The notes beneath the pieces are model-generated. The model ran no database searches. It had not been told where the DNA came from and worked only from the letters and a program-made list of their open reading frames with translations. 11,522 bases of DNA from Candidatus Calidifonticultor daggyaiensis (GTDB taxonomy: Bacteria; Actinomycetota; Humimicrobiia; Humimicrobiales; Humimicrobiaceae). The position numbers were made by a program, and so were the translations under genes. Within the stretch, counting starts at the first letter, position 1, and every line of letters begins with the position of its first letter. Positions 2,011 through 9,494 of this stretch are shown one piece after another. The stretch is from the NCBI GenBank assembly GCA_015661035.1, contig JACVJA010000012.1:1-11522 (forward strand). Reading direction: 5' to 3'.

Positions 2011-2424
2011 ATGCCTGAAGAATCTATTAATATATTTGTTACCAATATTTATACTGTAGTTTTTTTTACTGCAGTATTTTTAATTATCTTTTTAACATTA
2101 TTTTTTATATCAAGACATTTAAGTTTAAAGTATAATTCTACAAAAAATGATAATGAATTAGCTACCAAAGATATAGCACCAAAAATTTTAAAAATCCCAA
2201 AAAGTTTTTTATATATACAAAGAAAGGATTTTAATGTTTTAAAAACAATTTTTACAATTGGTATATTATTTATATCTATAGTATTATTACTATTTTTAGT
2301 TTTGTTATCATTTTATTTTTCTTTAAATTTTAAAATAGATGTAAACTTATACCTAATTTTTGTAATTTTATTTTTAATTATTGTTATTTGTATATATGCT
2401 ATAAAATCAAAAATATTAGGATAA
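2011..2424 (+). CDS. nuoA: NuoA-like membrane subunit, highly divergent
   Basis: A 137-residue protein with three predicted membrane helices (about 12-34, 78-104 and 112-131) and a hydrophilic Asn/Lys-rich loop between the first two, the architecture and size of complex I subunit NuoA (ND3). It is called from topology, from its position just before nuoB, and from the ending YAIKSKILG, which resembles the YxxxxGALxW end of NuoA. The family signatures are gone. There is no YECG-type motif in the loop and no cysteine outside helix 3. Taking F74 as the anchor for helix 2, the conserved Asp/Glu pair (FDxE) falls on S89 and V91. In complex I this loop and helix help form the entrance to the E-channel near the quinone cavity. 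ATG at 2011 is preceded only by a weak purine run. First gene of an eight-gene same-strand operon; 27 bases separate it from nuoB. Confidence 0.6.
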   Translation: MPEESINIFVTNIYTVVFFTAVFLIIFLTLFFISRHLSLKYNSTKNDNELATKDIAPKILKIPKSFLYIQRKDFNVLKTIFTIGILFISIVLLLFLVLLSFYFSLNFKIDVNLYLIFVILFLIIVICIYAIKSKILG

Positions 2425-2451
2425 TAAAAATTTTTTTAAAGCATTTTCTTT

Positions 2452-2850
2452 ATGGAGTATTTTTTTACAAAGAAAAAATTAAATATATTTGTAACAGGTA
2501 TTGGTTGTTGTAAACAGGAAATAATAGCAACAGTGGGTCCAATTTATGATATATCTAGGTTTGGAGTCAATTTTGTCAGTTTGCCAGAGGATGCAGATAT
2601 TTTAGTAATTCAAGGATTTATAAGCAGTTTAGGTGAAAAAAGGCTAATTACGATATTTAACTCATTAAAAACTCCAAAATGGATTATTGCTGTTGGAAAA
2701 TGTGTAGTTGATAGCAGTTTATTAAATAAGAATTATAAATTTACAGATAAATTTAAAAATATATTAAAAATTGATTATTATTTGCCTGGTTGTCCGCCCA
2801 GGCCGGAAGCATTTATTTTTTGTTTATTAAAATTGCAAGAATTAATCTAA
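2452..2850 (+). CDS. nuoB: NuoB-like subunit carrying the N2-type [4Fe-4S] cluster
   Basis: 132 residues, short for NuoB but complete for the core fold. All four cluster ligands are present: adjacent C19-C20 in GIGCCKQE, C84 in AVGKCVVD, and C114 in LPGCPPRPEA. The adjacent Cys-Cys is the complex I pattern; the related small subunits of group 4 [NiFe] hydrogenases have a CxxC there. PIYDISRFGV is also a family hallmark. In complex I this cluster is the last in the chain and reduces quinone in the pocket between NuoB and NuoD. The glycine-rich stretch after the third Cys in usual NuoB (SSGG) is replaced by VDSSLL. ATG at 2452 lacks an obvious Shine-Dalgarno. The gene ends two bases before the next start codon, indicating translational coupling. 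Confidence 0.9.
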   Translation: MEYFFTKKKLNIFVTGIGCCKQEIIATVGPIYDISRFGVNFVSLPEDADILVIQGFISSLGEKRLITIFNSLKTPKWIIAVGKCVVDSSLLNKNYKFTDKFKNILKIDYYLPGCPPRPEAFIFCLLKLQELI

Positions 2851-2852
2851 TT

Positions 2853-4481
2853 ATGGCAAAGGAACTTTTTCAAGGAATATATTCGTCACATAAAATTGTT
2901 TTTATTGAGCGAATAGAAAAAAATTTGCAGTTTTACTTGAAAGATAAAATTGCAAATATTAAAAAGTCAGGTCAAGAAATTATCTTAGATATTGATATTA
3001 AAAATATTGATTTTGTTTTATCAGAGCTGAAAAATAATCCTGAGTTTAGTGTTGAAATATTAAATTCAATAGTTTTTTACCCGTCTAAAAATGCTAATTT
3101 TTTACTTTTAAGTTTAGCTTCAATGTCTAATAATTTTTCCTTGATTCTAAAAATAAATCTAGGGGTTATAGAAAAAAATGAAGATAGTGAGCTGTTAGAA
3201 AATAATAAGCTTTTTAGTGATAGCTTAAGCAGCTTATCCTTAAAAAATAAAAAATATATAAATTTATTAAATTACACAAAAACAGAAAATTTTTTAATTA
3301 AATATAATGAAATCATTGAGGAAATTTCTAAGTATTATAAAAATGCTAATAATTTTAAGAACAATAAGATATTACGTCAAAGTGTAAATGATTTAATTAT
3401 AAAGTCTGGGGTTTTGGATGGCTTAGATTTTTTTGATCTATATGTTCAAGCTGAATTTGACTTAATAGTTAAGGCATATATGGATTTAACTATTGCAGAA
3501 ATAAATTCCAATGATATTTTTTCTGCTATTAAGTTTACTGATTTATTAACAATTATTAGCAGACTTGATTATAGCGCAGGAATATTTCCTGAAATTTGCT
3601 TTTGTATAGGAGTTGAAGATGTCCTGCAAATAAAAGTTTCAAGAAAAGTAAGTTTGATTAGAATGCTTATTTCTGAATTATTTAGAATTTCAAATCATAT
3701 TTTTTATATTGCAAAAATTTCAAAAGTTTTAGGAGCTGATTTATGTTTTAATAAAGCATTAATTGAAAGGGAAAAGGTTTTAAGGATAATAGAGTTATAT
3801 ACCGGTAGCAGAATAAACCCTAATTTTATTAGAATTGGCGGCTTAAAAGAAGATTTAAGTGATGCAAAATTGTTAACTCTTAAAAAAGCTTTAAAAGAAA
3901 TAATGATAAATATTGATAGTTTGGAAACATTATTATTAGACAATTCTATAATTACAGCTAAACTTAAAAATATTGGAATTATCAATAAAGATGTTGCAGT
4001 AAAATACGGCTTGTCTGGTCCAAATTTAAGATCTTGCGGCATAAGATATGATGTCAGAAAAAATAGGAATCTTTTATTATATAAAGACATATCATTTTTA
4101 ATACCAGTAGGTAAATATGGAGACTGTTTAGACCGGGTACAGATACGTTTTAATGAAATATATCAATCTATTAAGATAATTGAGCAGATTTTAAATCAAA
4201 TTACTGATGAACCGGTTAAAAAATATCTAAGATTTGATGGAGTAAATATTCCAAGAATAGAGACAGTGGCAAGCGTTGAGTGTCCCCATGGTGCTTATAA
4301 GATTTTTTTAGAATTAGAGGATGAATATATTTTAAATTTGGTCCCTATAACTCCTTCTATAAATAGTTTATTTTGCGCACAAGAGATTTTGCAAGGTAGT
4401 AAAGTTGAAGATATTATTTTAATAATTGCAAGCCTTGATTTAAGTTCTAGTGAATTTTTTCAAAGGTTTTATTTATGGTAA
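2853..4481 (+). CDS. nuoCD: NuoC-NuoD fusion-like subunit without quinone-site or Ni-ligand residues
   Basis: A 542-residue soluble subunit. Residues about 40-103 resemble the NuoC core (NPEFSVEIL....YPSKNANFLLLSLASMS......ILKINL). Residues about 222-542 are clearly NuoD: SRLDYSAG, LISELFRISNHIFYIA, ALIEREKVLRIIELYTGSR, FIRIGGLKEDL, LSGPNLRSCGIRYDVRKNR, IPVGKYGDCLDR, IASLDLSSSE. Between them lie about 120 residues I cannot align, where NuoC should carry its ERExxDxxGI motif and NuoD its HPxxHG and GYLHRG motifs. The Tyr three residues before RLDY is I234, and the Asp of ALDxGA is V292. The end has LDLSSSE where hydrogenases have DPCxxC, so no Ni site is visible either; C477 is isolated. ATG at 2853 is chosen because a start at 2790 would read nuoB out of frame. 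The gene overlaps nuoH by seven bases. Confidence 0.88.
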   Translation: MAKELFQGIYSSHKIVFIERIEKNLQFYLKDKIANIKKSGQEIILDIDIKNIDFVLSELKNNPEFSVEILNSIVFYPSKNANFLLLSLASMSNNFSLILKINLGVIEKNEDSELLENNKLFSDSLSSLSLKNKKYINLLNYTKTENFLIKYNEIIEEISKYYKNANNFKNNKILRQSVNDLIIKSGVLDGLDFFDLYVQAEFDLIVKAYMDLTIAEINSNDIFSAIKFTDLLTIISRLDYSAGIFPEICFCIGVEDVLQIKVSRKVSLIRMLISELFRISNHIFYIAKISKVLGADLCFNKALIEREKVLRIIELYTGSRINPNFIRIGGLKEDLSDAKLLTLKKALKEIMINIDSLETLLLDNSIITAKLKNIGIINKDVAVKYGLSGPNLRSCGIRYDVRKNRNLLLYKDISFLIPVGKYGDCLDRVQIRFNEIYQSIKIIEQILNQITDEPVKKYLRFDGVNIPRIETVASVECPHGAYKIFLELEDEYILNLVPITPSINSLFCAQEILQGSKVEDIILIIASLDLSSSEFFQRFYLW

Positions 4482-5410
4482 GTATTTTCTTAAAAGTAAT
4501 TTATGTTTTTTTAATTGTTGGTATAAATTTATATGTAGGTTCGTATTTTGTTAATAAAATAGCTGGTAGAACTGTTTATAAAAGGGGTTATACTGCTATA
4601 AAAGACGGTGGAGTAAGCTACCCTGCGTTTAAAATTTTTAAGTACTTGGAAAAAGATTCGAAAGTTGGATTATGGGACTTTTTATTGTTGTTATTTTCAT
4701 TTTTTATTTGGGTTTTTATACCATTTTCCAATGTATTAATTTTAATAAGGTTTGATAACGATTTAATTATATCACTACTATTTTTAATGATATTATTTTT
4801 TTTGTTTGTAATTAATAATTCAAAAAGCAAATATAGTTTAATTTTTAACAATATATCAAGAAATGTAGTTATGATGTTTTCATTTTTAATACCTTTGTTT
4901 TTAAATATTGCTAGCTTAGTACTAATAAACAGAACTTTAGCATTAAAGGAAATTATTGGATTGCAGTATCGAAATTGGAACATAATTTATCAGCCTTTAG
5001 GTTTTTTAATATTTTTATGTATAATATTTCTTCAGGTAAAGATTTTTGGTCTTACAAAAACAGATAAATTATTTTACGGTGACAACTGGGGAATTGAAGG
5101 CAATGGTTTTGCCAAATTAGCTTTAAGAATAGCAAATTATAATATTGTATTCTTCTTAATTGTTTTGACAGTTATTCTGTACCTTGCTGGTTGGCAAAAT
5201 TTTTATTTTATTAATGGCAATATAATGTTTTTATTAAAGTTTTACATTATTTTTTTTATTATTTTGTTAATTGATAAAGCCACACCAGCAATCAATTATT
5301 ATAAATATTTAACTGCAATAAATTTAAAATTTTTAACTCCAATTTCTGTAGTAAATTTTATAATTACTATTGTTTTTTTTATGTTAAGAAATGTTTATAG
5401 TTTAATTTAA
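4475..5410 (+). CDS. nuoH: NuoH-like membrane subunit with lost acidic residues
   Basis: 311 residues with about eight membrane helices; NuoH (ND1) is the membrane anchor that forms the quinone tunnel and the start of the proton path. Recognisable landmarks are GRTVYKRGY after helix 1 (compare GRxQxRxGPN), NNSKSKYSLI (compare SNSKYxLLG), NVVMMFSFLIP (compare AQxxSYExP), LTKTDKLFY (compare AExNRxPFD), and the end FLLKFYIIFFIILLIDKATPAI (compare the RATLPR region). The glutamate of SYE is L138. The AExNRxPFD motif has become TKTDKLFYG, with K195 replacing its Glu. The following acidic loop is shortened to NWGIEGNG. AAAGG at 4462-4466 lies eight bases before the ATG, a good ribosome binding site inside the end of the upstream gene. 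The reduced charge along the tunnel and E-channel fits the rest of the operon. No stop or frameshift suggests decay. Confidence 0.85.
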   Translation: MVSIFLKVIYVFLIVGINLYVGSYFVNKIAGRTVYKRGYTAIKDGGVSYPAFKIFKYLEKDSKVGLWDFLLLLFSFFIWVFIPFSNVLILIRFDNDLIISLLFLMILFFLFVINNSKSKYSLIFNNISRNVVMMFSFLIPLFLNIASLVLINRTLALKEIIGLQYRNWNIIYQPLGFLIFLCIIFLQVKIFGLTKTDKLFYGDNWGIEGNGFAKLALRIANYNIVFFLIVLTVILYLAGWQNFYFINGNIMFLLKFYIIFFIILLIDKATPAINYYKYLTAINLKFLTPISVVNFIITIVFFMLRNVYSLI

Positions 5411-5431
5411 ACAATTTAAAAGCAAGAGATT

Positions 5432-5860
5432 ATGAAACCTTTAGTTAGAGATTTTTTTATATGTTTTGGTAATATTTTTAGAAAACCTAAAGCTGCTGTT
5501 TACCCAAAAGAAAAAATTATAATCCCTGATAACAGCAGGGGTATACCAAGATTGAAATTAGACCTTGATACACTGGAAGTTATTTGTAATGGTTGTGGTG
5601 AATGTGAAAAAAATTGTCCTCAGCAATGCATAAGTATTAAGACCATTATTGAAAATAAAAAGGAATTTTTAGATGAGTTTTACATTGATTTAAGTAAATG
5701 TATATTTTGTGGAAATTGTGTAGAGCATTGCCCAATTAATGCAATAGAGATGACTTATAGATATCAACTTGCAGATTCAAACAAACAGGCTTTTAAATTT
5801 GAAAAGCTGGATTTAATTAAACAAGCAGATTATTCAATTAGAGATTTTTGGTCAAGATAA
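5432..5860 (+). CDS. nuoI: NuoI-like ferredoxin subunit with two [4Fe-4S] clusters
   Basis: 142 residues. Two complete cluster motifs are visible: C52-C55-C58-C62 (CNGCGECEKNCP) and C90-C93-C96-C100 (CIFCGNCVEHCP). YPKEKIIIPDNSRGIPRL precedes them, and IEMTYRYQLAD follows the second motif, as in NuoI where MTxEYELA is conserved. The spacing between motifs is the normal NuoI spacing. In complex I these clusters (N6a and N6b) pass electrons to the N2 cluster of NuoB. With NuoE, F and G absent from the neighbourhood, electrons would have to come from a soluble donor such as ferredoxin or from subunits encoded elsewhere. ATG at 5432 has a weak purine-rich site upstream. The gene sits 21 bases after nuoH and 37 bases before nuoJ. 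Confidence 0.93.
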   Translation: MKPLVRDFFICFGNIFRKPKAAVYPKEKIIIPDNSRGIPRLKLDLDTLEVICNGCGECEKNCPQQCISIKTIIENKKEFLDEFYIDLSKCIFCGNCVEHCPINAIEMTYRYQLADSNKQAFKFEKLDLIKQADYSIRDFWSR

Positions 5861-5897
5861 GTTAAATTAAAAATAATTAATTATGGATTGAAGACTT

Positions 5898-6470
5898 ATG
5901 GATGGAAAACAAATATTAGGTTTTGTTAATTATTTAATGTTGGCTTTAGTTTTTTTGTTTTCATTATTTTCATTAATATTTAAAAACCAAAGGAGGAAAA
6001 TAACATTTTTATTCTTGGTTTTTATATGCCTATTGCTAATAAGTTTTTTATTTTTTAGTGGAAATGTTTTTATCTTAAGTGCAATTATAATTATTATATT
6101 TTCAGTCTTGATAGTTTTAATTGTAAATAACCAAGAATATTTTGCTATAAAGACAATTTCCAACGTAGAAGGCAAAGATAAGGTAAATAATAAAGACAAA
6201 GTTAAAGATAAATTAGAAACATCAATCATTTTAAGTTTAGTTTTTTCAATAATTGCAGCGCTCTTTTTTAGTTTTTTATTTATAAATTTAACAAGGAACT
6301 TTTATAAAGAATTGAAGTTTGTTGAAACTTTTAATACAGTAAATATTGAGTCTATTATTAACGATATTAGTACAGGATTTAGCGGGCTGATATTTTTAAT
6401 AATAATAACTCTAATAGGATGTTTTTTCTGGTTTATATATATGATTGAAAATCGAAAGGAAAACCAGTGA
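5898..6470 (+). CDS. nuoJ: NuoJ-like membrane subunit
   Basis: 190 residues with about five hydrophobic helices, in the NuoJ (ND6) position directly before nuoK. The third helix, NVFILSAIIIIIFSVLIVLIV, aligns with the NuoJ helix VLVYxGAIMVLFxFVxMLL, which carries the pi-bulge central to coupling; the conserved Tyr three residues before Ala-Ile is I59, and the Gly is S61. A Lys/Asp-rich hydrophilic stretch (about 91-107) separates helices 3 and 4. The ending ISTGFSGLIFLIIITLIGC resembles the LLPFExxSxLLLxAxxGA helix but lacks its acidic residue. ATG at 5898 is used; an in-frame ATG at 5883 hits TGA after one codon. The stop codon overlaps the GTG start of nuoK (GTGA), so the two are translationally coupled. 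Identity rests on weak motifs plus strong synteny. Confidence 0.75.
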   Translation: MDGKQILGFVNYLMLALVFLFSLFSLIFKNQRRKITFLFLVFICLLLISFLFFSGNVFILSAIIIIIFSVLIVLIVNNQEYFAIKTISNVEGKDKVNNKDKVKDKLETSIILSLVFSIIAALFFSFLFINLTRNFYKELKFVETFNTVNIESIINDISTGFSGLIFLIIITLIGCFFWFIYMIENRKENQ

Positions 6471-6808
6471 AATTACAATATTTAAATTATATAATCTTTT
6501 TGATATTCCTTTTAGGTTTATGTTCAGTTGCTTGTGTTAAAAAATTTCTTTCAATATTAATATCTATTCAGATAATTTTAGTTTCTGCGACTTTAAACTT
6601 TTATTCTTTTTCCTTATTTTTATATAGTTTAACTAGTTGGGATAAAATTTTTGTTTTTTTTGGCTTATTGACGATATATATTTTTCTAATACTAATAGTA
6701 TTTTATAATTATTTTAAGCAAACTGGTCTTTACCAAATTGATGTCTTAAAAGATTTGAATCTTTTTAAACTTAGTAAATCTGACTGGTGGGGAGAAGATA
6801 ATAATTGA
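6467..6808 (+). CDS. nuoK: NuoK-like membrane subunit lacking both membrane glutamates
   Basis: 113 residues with three helices and the NuoK (ND4L) layout. The second helix reads FLSILISIQIILVSATLNF against the family pattern NxxxxLxxxELMxNAxxLxF, and the end QTGLYQIDVLKDLNLF matches the RRxxxNIDxxxxxxG tail. E. coli NuoK has essential-type glutamates at 36 and 72, spaced 36 apart. The same ungapped positions here are Q35 and Y71, also 36 apart, so the replacements are reliable rather than an alignment accident. These residues normally relay protons between the E-channel and the antiporter-like subunits. The GTG start has a good site (GAAAGGA, 6454-6460) six bases upstream and overlaps the nuoJ stop. 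The 3' end overlaps the next gene's TTG start. A short charged tail (about 100-113, SDWWGEDNN) extends beyond the usual end. Confidence 0.85.
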   Translation: MKLQYLNYIIFLIFLLGLCSVACVKKFLSILISIQIILVSATLNFYSFSLFLYSLTSWDKIFVFFGLLTIYIFLILIVFYNYFKQTGLYQIDVLKDLNLFKLSKSDWWGEDNN

Positions 6809-8589
6809 CTTATTTAGATGGATTTTTTAATTATATAAAATCTTTAGTGGGTAAAATTTATCCGTTTTACGGTATTGCTATATTTTTAATAGCAATTTTT
6901 TTATTATTATTTTACTTATTATCTACAAAAAAGGCTCTAAAAATATTTTCAATTATAATTTCATTTACAGCAATTATTGCTGCAATTTCTGTAAGTATTA
7001 TTTCTTTTTTTAAAAACGGTCCTTTTTCAAGTTATTTATTCAATTTCGATATCTTTGAGCTTGTAATTACTTGCTTTATTTTATTTCTTGCGCTAAATAT
7101 TTTAATTTTTATTAGTTTTAAAAATTTTTATAGGAAAAATTTTAATAAAATTGTTTTGTTTTTTTTAACAACTGTTATTTCTTTTATTTTTTTCATTGCA
7201 TCTGCTAACCTTGCAATGATTTTTTCCAGCTTGGTATTAGTTATTATTAATATTTTTATTCTTATTACATCATTAAATGATAGGTTTAGTTTAGGCAGTT
7301 TTGTAAAAACATATGATGAGCATATTGTAAAAAATTATATCTTAAGATTCTTTTTGGTTTCGCTTGTTTCTATGGCATTAATTTTTGTAGGCTTTTCTTA
7401 TATTTTTGGCGCCACTGATTTAAAAAGTTTTGTGCAAATACTAGAAACTGAAAAAATTTTAAATCCCATAGTTAAAGTAGGGCTTGTTATAATTTTTAGT
7501 GCTATTTACTTATTTTTATTTATTTTTCCTTTTCAAAGTGCATATATAAGGTTAATAAAGCGTTGTGACAGCACATCTTTAACAATAATTTGGTTTTTTT
7601 ATCTTACTTGTGGGCTATTTTTACTTTTAAAGCTTCGTTTCGTGTTTTTTTATTTTGCAAAAGGAAACCTTTATATCTCAACTGCACTTCTTTTAATTGG
7701 GGTAATTTGTATTTTAGGAGGTAATATTGGTTCAATTAAAACATTTAGTGTTAGAAGAACTTTATCTTTTATATATTTTACAGTATTAGGTCTTTTAATA
7801 TTGGCAATGTTTTACTTTAGCAGTGGTATTTTAAATGAAAAAAGCTTATTAAAAATTTTTATATCTAATTTAGTTTTTGTAGCAATGCTTTACTTTCCGT
7901 TTTTTTTAATTGCTGCTAAGTTAGAAGAGCATTTTCAAGATAAAATTTTTGATAATTTAGCTAGTTTAAAATATTTAAAGAATAACAAAAATCTAAAATA
8001 TTTTTCCATAACTTTGATTATTTTAATTATTTTGTTTCCTTTTCTGGTTTTCGCAAATGGCTATTTAACAGAAAAAGGACAATTTTTTATTCTAGCAAAT
8101 TTGGTTAATTCTAAATCTTTAAGTCAAAGAATTAGCAACCTTTTTGATATTATTAAAGATTTAAATAAAAACAATTTAAATATAAGCTTTGAATTGTTTA
8201 AGCAATATTATTTAATTTTAATTTATGTTGCAACTTTATTTTTTATTATTGGTATACTTTTTTTATTTATAAATATTATTAGAGTAGTAATTATAGTGAT
8301 AAAAAGAGATAATAGTTTTATTGATGATAAGATTATTTCTGTAAAAAATATAAACATAAATTTAAATCAAAATTTAGATTCAAAAATAGAAAACAATAAA
8401 TTATCTAACAAATTTGAAAATAATAAAAAAAATTATAATTTTAGCAATTTAGAATTAAGGCTACCAAAGTTTTATTATATATATATCACTGTTAGTGTTA
8501 TTTTTTTTGTATTATTATTAATAAATATTATATTAGGTTTTTTTAATTTAAGTTTGCTGCCATCAAATCTTCAACTTTTATTAAGATAG
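6805..8589 (+). CDS. nuoN: NuoN/M-type antiporter-like subunit lacking the conserved Glu and Lys residues
   Basis: 594 residues with roughly fourteen membrane helices. Alignable blocks are SANLAMIFSSLVLVII (TM5 region), LNPIVKVGLVIIFSAIY..FPFQSAY (TM7), WFFYLTCGLFLLLKL (TM8), GGNIGSIKTFSVRRTLSFIYF (compare GNxxALxQxxxKRxLAYSSI), NLASLKYLKNNKNLKYFSI and FPFLVFANGYLTEKGQFFI (compare GIPPxxGFxGKF). The overall pattern is closest to NuoN. The TM5 glutamate is V144, the TM7 lysine is F237 and the TM8 lysine is L267, so the helices lack the charges of the proton half-channel. A hydrophilic Asn/Lys-rich insert (about 500-552) precedes a final helix. The start is TTG, overlapping the nuoK stop (TTGA), with GGAGAAG at 6791-6797 as ribosome binding site. 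It is the only antiporter-like subunit here; NuoL and NuoM are absent. Longer than usual NuoN (about 480-500). Confidence 0.8.
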   Translation: MTYLDGFFNYIKSLVGKIYPFYGIAIFLIAIFLLLFYLLSTKKALKIFSIIISFTAIIAAISVSIISFFKNGPFSSYLFNFDIFELVITCFILFLALNILIFISFKNFYRKNFNKIVLFFLTTVISFIFFIASANLAMIFSSLVLVIINIFILITSLNDRFSLGSFVKTYDEHIVKNYILRFFLVSLVSMALIFVGFSYIFGATDLKSFVQILETEKILNPIVKVGLVIIFSAIYLFLFIFPFQSAYIRLIKRCDSTSLTIIWFFYLTCGLFLLLKLRFVFFYFAKGNLYISTALLLIGVICILGGNIGSIKTFSVRRTLSFIYFTVLGLLILAMFYFSSGILNEKSLLKIFISNLVFVAMLYFPFFLIAAKLEEHFQDKIFDNLASLKYLKNNKNLKYFSITLIILIILFPFLVFANGYLTEKGQFFILANLVNSKSLSQRISNLFDIIKDLNKNNLNISFELFKQYYLILIYVATLFFIIGILFLFINIIRVVIIVIKRDNSFIDDKIISVKNININLNQNLDSKIENNKLSNKFENNKKNYNFSNLELRLPKFYYIYITVSVIFFVLLLINIILGFFNLSLLPSNLQLLLR

Positions 8590-8720: not shown

Positions 8721-9494
8721 ATGGATGAAAGACCTCAAAGATCTTTATTAAGAAATTTAATTATTATAATTTTTATACTTGTAATAATTCTTGGTGTAAT
8801 TGTAAGTATCTACCAGTTTACATTTAAAACTGAATATTTGCCACCTACTGCATTGGCTGATTTACTTCCTAGATTTAGAATAATAGATATGGATAATTGC
8901 GGTATTTATACTGATGCAGATAATGATGGTATAAATGATCAAAAAGATATTTTAATGGGTGCAAAAAAACAATTAGAAAATCCTGCAAAAAATATTTTTA
9001 GCCCTGGTGTTGATCAGCCAAATTATTATAGCGGGGGAGACCCGCCTCCTGAATTTGCTTTATGCACTGATATTATTGCAAGATCCTTCAAAAACGCTGG
9101 GTTTAATTTAAGCGAGCTTGTAAATCAAGATATTCAAAATAACTTTGACCTTTATCCATTAAAAAAACTTTGGAATCAAAAAACATCTGATCCAAATATA
9201 GATTATAGAAGAATACAAAATTTGGAAATTTTTTTTAAAAGGAATGCAAAGGAACTTATTTTAACTTTTGATAGTGCTGATATAAAAAACCTTGAGCAGT
9301 GGCTGCCTGGTGATGTTGTATTTTTTGATATGAATAAGGATGGTTTTACTGACAATGTGGGAATTATATCTGATGCTACTACAAGGAAAGGGGTGCCTAA
9401 AGTTATATACAATTATATTGAACCAGGTTTTACTATAGAAGAAGATATTTTAGGCAAAACTGTCATTAAAGGGCATTATAGGTTTCCAAAATAG
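8721..9494 (+). CDS. Membrane-anchored DUF1287 protein with two Ca2+-type loops
   Basis: 257 residues: a signal anchor (about 11-32), then an extracytoplasmic DUF1287 domain. Family marks are YYSGGDPPPEFALCTDII (102-119), the DIQNNFDLYP region, DPNIDYRRIQNLEIFFKR (157-174), QWLPGDVVFFD (193-203), and the end IKGHYRFP. DUF1287 is thought to have an NlpC/P60-like fold, in which C115 would be the nucleophile. The matching catalytic His, expected just before VGIISD, is N212 here. Two acidic loops look like calcium sites: DADNDGINDQKD (65-76), similar to thrombospondin type 3 or dockerin-type repeats, and DMNKDGFTD (203-211). A wall hydrolase or wall-binding role is inferred, not shown. The gene stands alone, 131 bases after the nuo-like operon; a weak promoter-like pair (TTGCTA 8623-8628, TAGATT 8645-8650) precedes it. 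No Shine-Dalgarno is evident before the ATG. Confidence 0.82.
   Translation: MDERPQRSLLRNLIIIIFILVIILGVIVSIYQFTFKTEYLPPTALADLLPRFRIIDMDNCGIYTDADNDGINDQKDILMGAKKQLENPAKNIFSPGVDQPNYYSGGDPPPEFALCTDIIARSFKNAGFNLSELVNQDIQNNFDLYPLKKLWNQKTSDPNIDYRRIQNLEIFFKRNAKELILTFDSADIKNLEQWLPGDVVFFDMNKDGFTDNVGIISDATTRKGVPKVIYNYIEPGFTIEEDILGKTVIKGHYRFPK

Follow-up and report, generated by a model that had tools for sequence, protein, structure and literature searches.

A class-wide, divergent complex I paralogue of the Humimicrobiia with conserved Fe-S ligands, a remodelled NuoD site and most pump residues replaced

The window, that is, the whole stretch of 11,522 nucleotides analysed here, is one contig of a metagenome-assembled genome (MAG) of Candidatus Calidifonticultor daggyaiensis, class Humimicrobiia (Actinomycetota). 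Positions 2011-8589 of its forward strand carry eight intact, partly overlapping open reading frames (ORFs), as an earlier reading of the letters alone (the sequence-only reading) had proposed, and these form the operon of a complex I paralogue with the gene content, in order, nuoA, B, CD (fused), H, I, J, K and N. Family models exceed their cut-offs in the NuoB-like protein with a complex-I-type tandem-Cys N2 site (2452..2850; PF01058), the NuoC-NuoD fusion of 543 amino acids (2850..4481; PF00346), the NuoH-like protein (4475..5410; PF00146) and the NuoI-like protein with two [4Fe-4S] sites (5432..5860; Fer4 models). The start of NuoCD is the ATG at 2850 or 2853, overlapping the nuoB stop, and E. 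coli NuoCD is the best match to its AlphaFold model. The remaining subunits, all on the same strand, have been assigned by hhalign: the NuoJ-like protein (5898..6470) with an E value of 1.8e-6 and a probability of 90%, the NuoK-like protein (6467..6808; E 1.1e-8, the NCBIfam NuoK match being weak and below cut-off) and the NuoN-like antiporter-type subunit (6805..8589) by profile alignment to canonical NuoN. The NuoA-like protein of 137 amino acids (2011..2424) is placed by operon position, by 18 relatives of its family and by hhalign to canonical NuoA (E 3.5e-5, probability 72%); it has no family-model match and is therefore the weakest assignment. No E, F, G, L or M gene was found among the window ORFs by the family-model scan, E, F and G not having been searched genome-wide.

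The iron-sulphur (Fe-S) ligands of the complex are conserved. The window NuoB has all four cluster ligands (C19, C20, C84 and C114), and within f1, the family of deviant copies to which the window belongs, these cysteines are present in 20, 21, 21 and 21 of 21 rows, site by site; both members of the tandem pair are kept in 20 of the 21 rows, with Ala-Cys in locus L056 as the exception. The eight cluster cysteines of NuoI are kept in 24/24 f1 rows, window included, so that the sequence-only count of four and eight cysteines stands. The tandem NuoB cysteines, the two [4Fe-4S] motifs of NuoI and a NuoD homology devoid of NiFe ligands together place the operon in the complex I lineage. A group 4 [NiFe] hydrogenase is ruled out, as the four NiFe-binding cysteines and the small-subunit CxxC are absent when the window is aligned with the hydrogenase row L068; NuoD of the window reads SRLDYSAGIF and ASLDLSSSEF against RICGIC and DPCIGC. 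L068 itself (genome G016) comprises [NiFe]-hydrogenase-type large and small subunits with NuoH/I-like genes, and L071 (G017) resembles it, with split frames and ambiguous bases.

The quinone site of NuoD is extensively remodelled. The equivalent of Nqo4 His38 is found in none of the 23 f1 rows with a letter at that position and that of Asp139 in none of 24, while the HPxxHG loop is replaced in f1 by conserved acids (D in 22 and E in one of 23 rows at one position, D in 23/23 at another). The sequence-only reading had put the loss of the His, Tyr and Asp together; the His and Asp are indeed lost, but the Tyr is present, since alignment with Thermus Nqo4 (2fug_4) sets Tyr87 (PRMDY) on Tyr241 of the window (SRLDY; codon 3570..3572). 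The Tyr87 equivalent is absent in families f2 and f3. Furthermore, the complex I motif E-x-x-K/R-G has become E-C-P-H-G in deviant NuoD (E477-G481 of the window, 4278..4292). The Cys of this motif occurs in 28/28 deviant rows and in 0/10 canonical rows; the His occurs in 25 of the 28, the other three, all of genus g13, having Asp. According to PMC9474812, the catalytic canopy of hydrogenases and complex I is made of the corresponding Arg/Lys and an Asp; this canopy Asp is kept in 23/28 deviant rows (19/24 in f1, 3/3 in f3 and 1/1 in f2).

Coupling residues of the membrane arm were located by profile-profile alignment (hhalign), ungapped registers and MAFFT, and all counts are of f1 rows with a letter at the site. 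The Asp/Glu pair of transmembrane helix 2 in NuoA corresponds to L93/F95 by hhalign rather than to S89/V91, as placed earlier by eye, and residues 85-99 contain no acid in any of 19 rows. NuoH Glu157 is L138 in the window and Glu in 0/24 rows, and the acid-rich loop is largely gone; Lys274 is kept in 24/24 rows and Arg148, as K/R, in 24/24. The NuoJ Tyr59 position is I59, with Tyr in 1/22 rows. In NuoK, Glu36 is replaced by Q35 (Q in 20 and H in one of 21 rows); for Glu72 the hhalign alignment ends at residue 69 and, extended without gaps, leads to Y71 (Y in 17, F in three and L in one of 21 rows), the gapped MAFFT alignment gives Leu (L72), and neither register has Glu. NuoN, which has the fold of its canonical counterpart, shows V144 for Glu133 (Glu in 0/20 rows), F237 for Lys217 (Lys in 0/19; Y 12, F 6, H 1) and, for Lys247, L267 in the ungapped register or G270 by hhalign, with no Lys or Arg in either f1 column; Lys295 and Arg296 are kept in 18 and 19 of 19 rows. 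The replacements that the sequence-only reading had listed for NuoA, H, J, K and N are thus upheld in substance, the NuoA positions being shifted. An alternative register restoring the Glu and Lys residues is ruled out, as hhalign and MAFFT both give loss. Likewise, K276 is rejected as a shifted Lys247: the spacing of 32 residues from Q244 to K276 equals that from His224 to Arg256 in E. coli NuoN, and K276 hence matches canonical Arg256. NuoK also carries a C-terminal extension that terminates in a tryptophan motif, DWWGE in 12/21 f1 rows and WWGD, WYGE, WLGD or WLGE in the remaining nine.

The deviant NuoCD is distributed throughout the class. It is present in 32/40 class genomes (28/35 for f1, 3/4 for f3 and 1/1 for f2) and in 17/17 of those with at least 90% completeness and at most 5% contamination, hereafter the good genomes. 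The gene order A-B-CD-H-I-J-K-N and its flanks are common to f1, and contamination of the MAG is ruled out because relatives carry the same locus with the same neighbours. The ratio of nonsynonymous to synonymous substitution rates (dN/dS), calculated for nine genome pairs, is 0.03-0.46 in 63 of 66 computed cells, three being without dS and several dS values exceeding 1; for NuoN it ranges from 0.15 to 0.46. The sole frame break observed in the family is that of nuoN in L054 (6612-8288), which is split in two frames. In a phylum sample of 396 genomes, scores range over 387-576 bits in the 32 class members and peak at 330 outside the class; the six outsider loci inspected are all canonical, and the remaining outsiders are judged by the score gap. 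A scan of named genomes with f1-type patterns, which f2- or f3-like sequences would escape, detects ECPHG or ECPDG in 21/53 loci, the other 32 having no such motif; all 21 show 34-48% identity to the sequence A1 and belong to MAGs titled Actinobacteria, Actinomycetota, Actinomycetes or just bacterium.

The canonical enzyme is also present in the class. As the sequence-only reading had suggested looking for, a second nuo copy exists in the same genome, on contig C227, where NuoA, B, C, D and H are found with HPSTHG in NuoD and SYE in NuoH. Canonical NuoD is sporadic in the class (G000, G009, G017, G022, G025, G032 and G035; fragments occur in further genomes). A NuoD tree of 72 rows unites the f1, f2 and f3 deviants in one group (SH-aLRT 97) and sets the canonical Humimicrobiia copies apart, with other Actinomycetota; it was built by a quick method, its long branches, including f3 beside f1, are flagged, and one f1 record (L106) bears the script-assigned label canonical. 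In f2 (L062), a full canonical operon is directly followed by deviant B, C, D and H genes, with a NuoA-like frame assigned by position. The canonical operon and the start of the deviant one thus adjoin on one contig (L062 567-13555, G035:C47), which is likely the footprint of the duplication. Deviant I, J, K and N genes were not found in G035, where the contig ends after NuoH and the NuoN search gave only canonical N, M and L. The f3 loci have B, D, H, I, J, K and N and a NuoA-like frame by position; no NuoC-like frame was seen in them.

Both f2 and f3 are devoid of the NuoD His, Tyr and Asp and of the NuoH Glu (L059 having no letter at the His), and the NuoK glutamates of f3 are replaced by Ser and Gln in 3/3 loci. 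The f3 NuoN, by contrast, retains most pump residues, namely Glu133, an Arg at 217 and Lys395 (3/3). The losses were therefore not all simultaneous. In f1, too, a basic residue near NuoN Lys395 survives, which the sequence-only reading does not mention. The losses look stepwise, the quinone site and E-channel having gone before NuoN. The f3 NuoD (L059-L061) also ends in FDICVCEVD, with a Cys where the hydrogenase DPCxxC has its first ligand.

Quinone marker genes were surveyed in the class. MenD is over cut-off in 7/40 genomes, with a partial match below it in G003, and the MqnA-type model PF02621 has one strong match, in G035 (254 bits), and two others of 51-55 bits in G026 and G030. Neither MenD over cut-off nor PF02621 is found in 12 of the 17 good genomes, all of which carry the deviant complex; these marker genes favour an acceptor other than a self-made quinone. 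With regard to partner subunits, PF00361 finds no antiporter subunit in five of the 17 good genomes (G006, G016, G018, G024 and G027), and as this model also misses many f1 deviant NuoN proteins, only a recognisable additional L or M is absent there. The window genome has canonical L/M/N-type genes on contig C61; together with the misses of PF00361, this makes borrowing of NuoL/M possible.

The finding is real and conserved, and the operon is a new variant within the complex I superfamily. Judged from its sequences, we consider it rather likely to encode a selected, divergent, eight-subunit descendant of complex I that is class-wide, probably ferredoxin-linked, remodelled at its active site and probably without canonical proton pumping. 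Its genes supply the ligands of an Fe-S relay in NuoI and NuoB and a membrane arm that consists of H, J, K and a single NuoN-type subunit. A soluble low-potential carrier, ferredoxin being the simplest candidate, would deliver electrons to NuoI, from which they would pass to N2 and on to an acceptor in the remodelled chamber of NuoD, NuoB and NuoH. In that chamber the ECPHG His and the canopy Asp may handle protons, and the ECPHG Cys may be in contact with the substrate; the acceptor is not necessarily a quinone of the cell's own making. The membrane arm would serve as an anchor for the enzyme, and it probably pumps no protons along the established E-channel/antiporter route. The data remain consistent, at this conditional level, with the sequence-only proposal of a repurposed, possibly ferredoxin-linked complex with an unnamed acceptor and no canonical proton translocation. 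A more specific version is put forward tentatively: the class-specific descendant might be a membrane oxidoreductase that is driven by ferredoxin, does not pump and has a new non-quinone Cys-His (ECPHG) canopy site, the steps towards which would be preserved in the families, f2 with deviant A, B, C, D and H beside a canonical operon, f3 with site-deficient NuoD, H and K and a largely pump-competent NuoN, and f1 with nearly all lost.

Several observations weigh against this interpretation, and some of them lend weight to its rivals. The assignments of NuoA and NuoJ are weak, and ferredoxin as the donor is deduced from the absence of E, F and G alone. The five f1 rows of genera g10 and g13 have Cys or Gly for the canopy Asp, and three of these have Asp for the ECPHG His; the canopy chemistry put forward above thus does not apply to every member. 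It is rather improbable that the enzyme still reduces quinone at a site that is altered, of low affinity or of a different shape. Such an activity would agree with the Tyr87 equivalent of the window and the retained aromatic in that column (Y 15, W 7 and H 1 of 23 f1 rows), with the canopy Asp of most f1 rows, and with MenD, which occurs in 5/17 good genomes and is over cut-off in genera g10 and g13. PF02621 is found in none of the 17, and UbiA-family genes occur in 25/40 genomes and 10/17 good ones; MenD and UbiA-family genes together indicate that a quinone may exist. Yet no deviant row with a residue at these positions has the His38 or Asp139 equivalent, f2 and f3 are also without the Tyr, most good genomes are without MenD and PF02621, and MenD occurs in just those genera whose canopy Asp is gone. 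As g10 and g13 form one branch of the NuoD tree, the loss of the canopy Asp and the presence of MenD count as one event and not as a repeated correlation.

It is likewise unlikely, if less so, that ion translocation (H+ or Na+) persists along a rewired path of non-canonical residues. The membrane subunits are under purifying selection, as the NuoN dN/dS indicates, and charged or polar residues are conserved in a hydrophobic context, e.g. NuoN K276 and R493, NuoH K255 and D267, and NuoK Q35 and N44. K276 is conserved as K in 16 and R in three of 19 rows; a basic residue survives at or near NuoN Lys395 (E423-K424 in the window; R/K in 8/9 f1 rows aligned there, 12 rows being gapped), and, together with the residues kept by the f3 NuoN, these suggest that some ion movement is possible. 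Against such translocation stand the absence in f1 of the E-channel link (NuoH Glu157, the NuoA acids and NuoK Glu36/72), the absence of NuoH Glu157 and NuoK Glu36/72 in f3 too, and the loss of Glu133, Lys217 and Lys247 from the f1 NuoN. That the genes are merely decaying and the complex is functionless is hardly credible. High divergence, the split nuoN of L054 and the Cys-to-Ala change in the NuoB of L056 would fit decay, but no other stop or lost Cys was found in relatives, and pseudogenes are ruled out by class-wide presence, synteny, dN/dS well below 1 and cluster cysteines that are otherwise invariant, in agreement with the earlier claim of selection. The preferred reading thus remains that of a selected, divergent complex I descendant, probably without canonical pumping.

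Compared with canonical complex I (E. coli NuoA-N; G000:C227), the operon has the same order of homologous genes (A, B, CD, H, I, J, K, N), the same NuoB tandem-Cys N2 site, the eight NuoI cysteines and the NuoCD and NuoN folds. It differs by having no E, F, G, L or M, by the loss of the quinone-site His and Asp and of nearly all pump residues, and by ECPHG where the canonical motif is E-x-x-K/R-G. Archaeal Fpo and the ferredoxin-linked complexes of NDH type are likewise not known to have an NADH module and take up electrons independently of E, F and G, as proposed for the window; unlike the window operon, they typically retain the pump residues and L/M.

The membrane-bound sulfane sulfur reductase (MBS) of Pyrococcus furiosus, according to PMC7684303, is also without the Nqo4 His38 and Tyr87 equivalents and is a precedent for a non-quinone acceptor in the chamber. 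By the same source, it retains the antiporter charged residues, its proximal cluster has three ligating cysteines and no tandem Cys, as against four ligands in the window NuoB, and MbsL has Cys at two NiFe-ligand positions, of which the window has none in the alignment with L068. E. coli FHL-1, as described in PMC9474812, is a complex I relative with one antiporter-type subunit whose residues are partly replaced (Lys to Leu208) and with a described canopy Arg/Asp; it differs in its [NiFe] site, HycC Glu135 and E-channel-like path. In the literature covered, mostly at abstract level, no account of this complex was found, nor any relative combining all these losses, as had been surmised; MBS and FHL lose some only.

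The coupling of quinone chemistry to proton pumping in complex I is still debated. A natural family with stepwise loss of coupling residues, in which the Fe-S ligands and membrane arm are under selection, separates the needs of the fold from those of pumping and offers a natural experiment on the mechanism of complex I. The superfamily also gains a branch that is apparently independent of quinone, within a little-known class of uncultured bacteria on whose physiology almost nothing was found in the literature.

Directly 3' of nuoN lies a gene for a DUF1287 protein (PF06940) with an N-terminal membrane segment (8721..9494, forward strand), a neighbour conserved in 18/18 f1 loci that reach beyond nuoN. 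The gene is perhaps co-transcribed with the operon, and its product is a possible partner of the complex. The protein contains the stretch DADNDGINDQKD, which we take to be calcium-binding-like. The upstream flank common to f1 loci consists of a presumably LarC-like gene and, on the opposite strand, a gene presumably of AI-2E type. Terminator-like hairpins number four between 1700 and 8800 against 1.2 expected, and a promoter scan gives 63 matches against 58.6 expected. A 10-pair terminator-like hairpin with a T-rich tail lies at 2051-2077, within the start of the NuoA frame.

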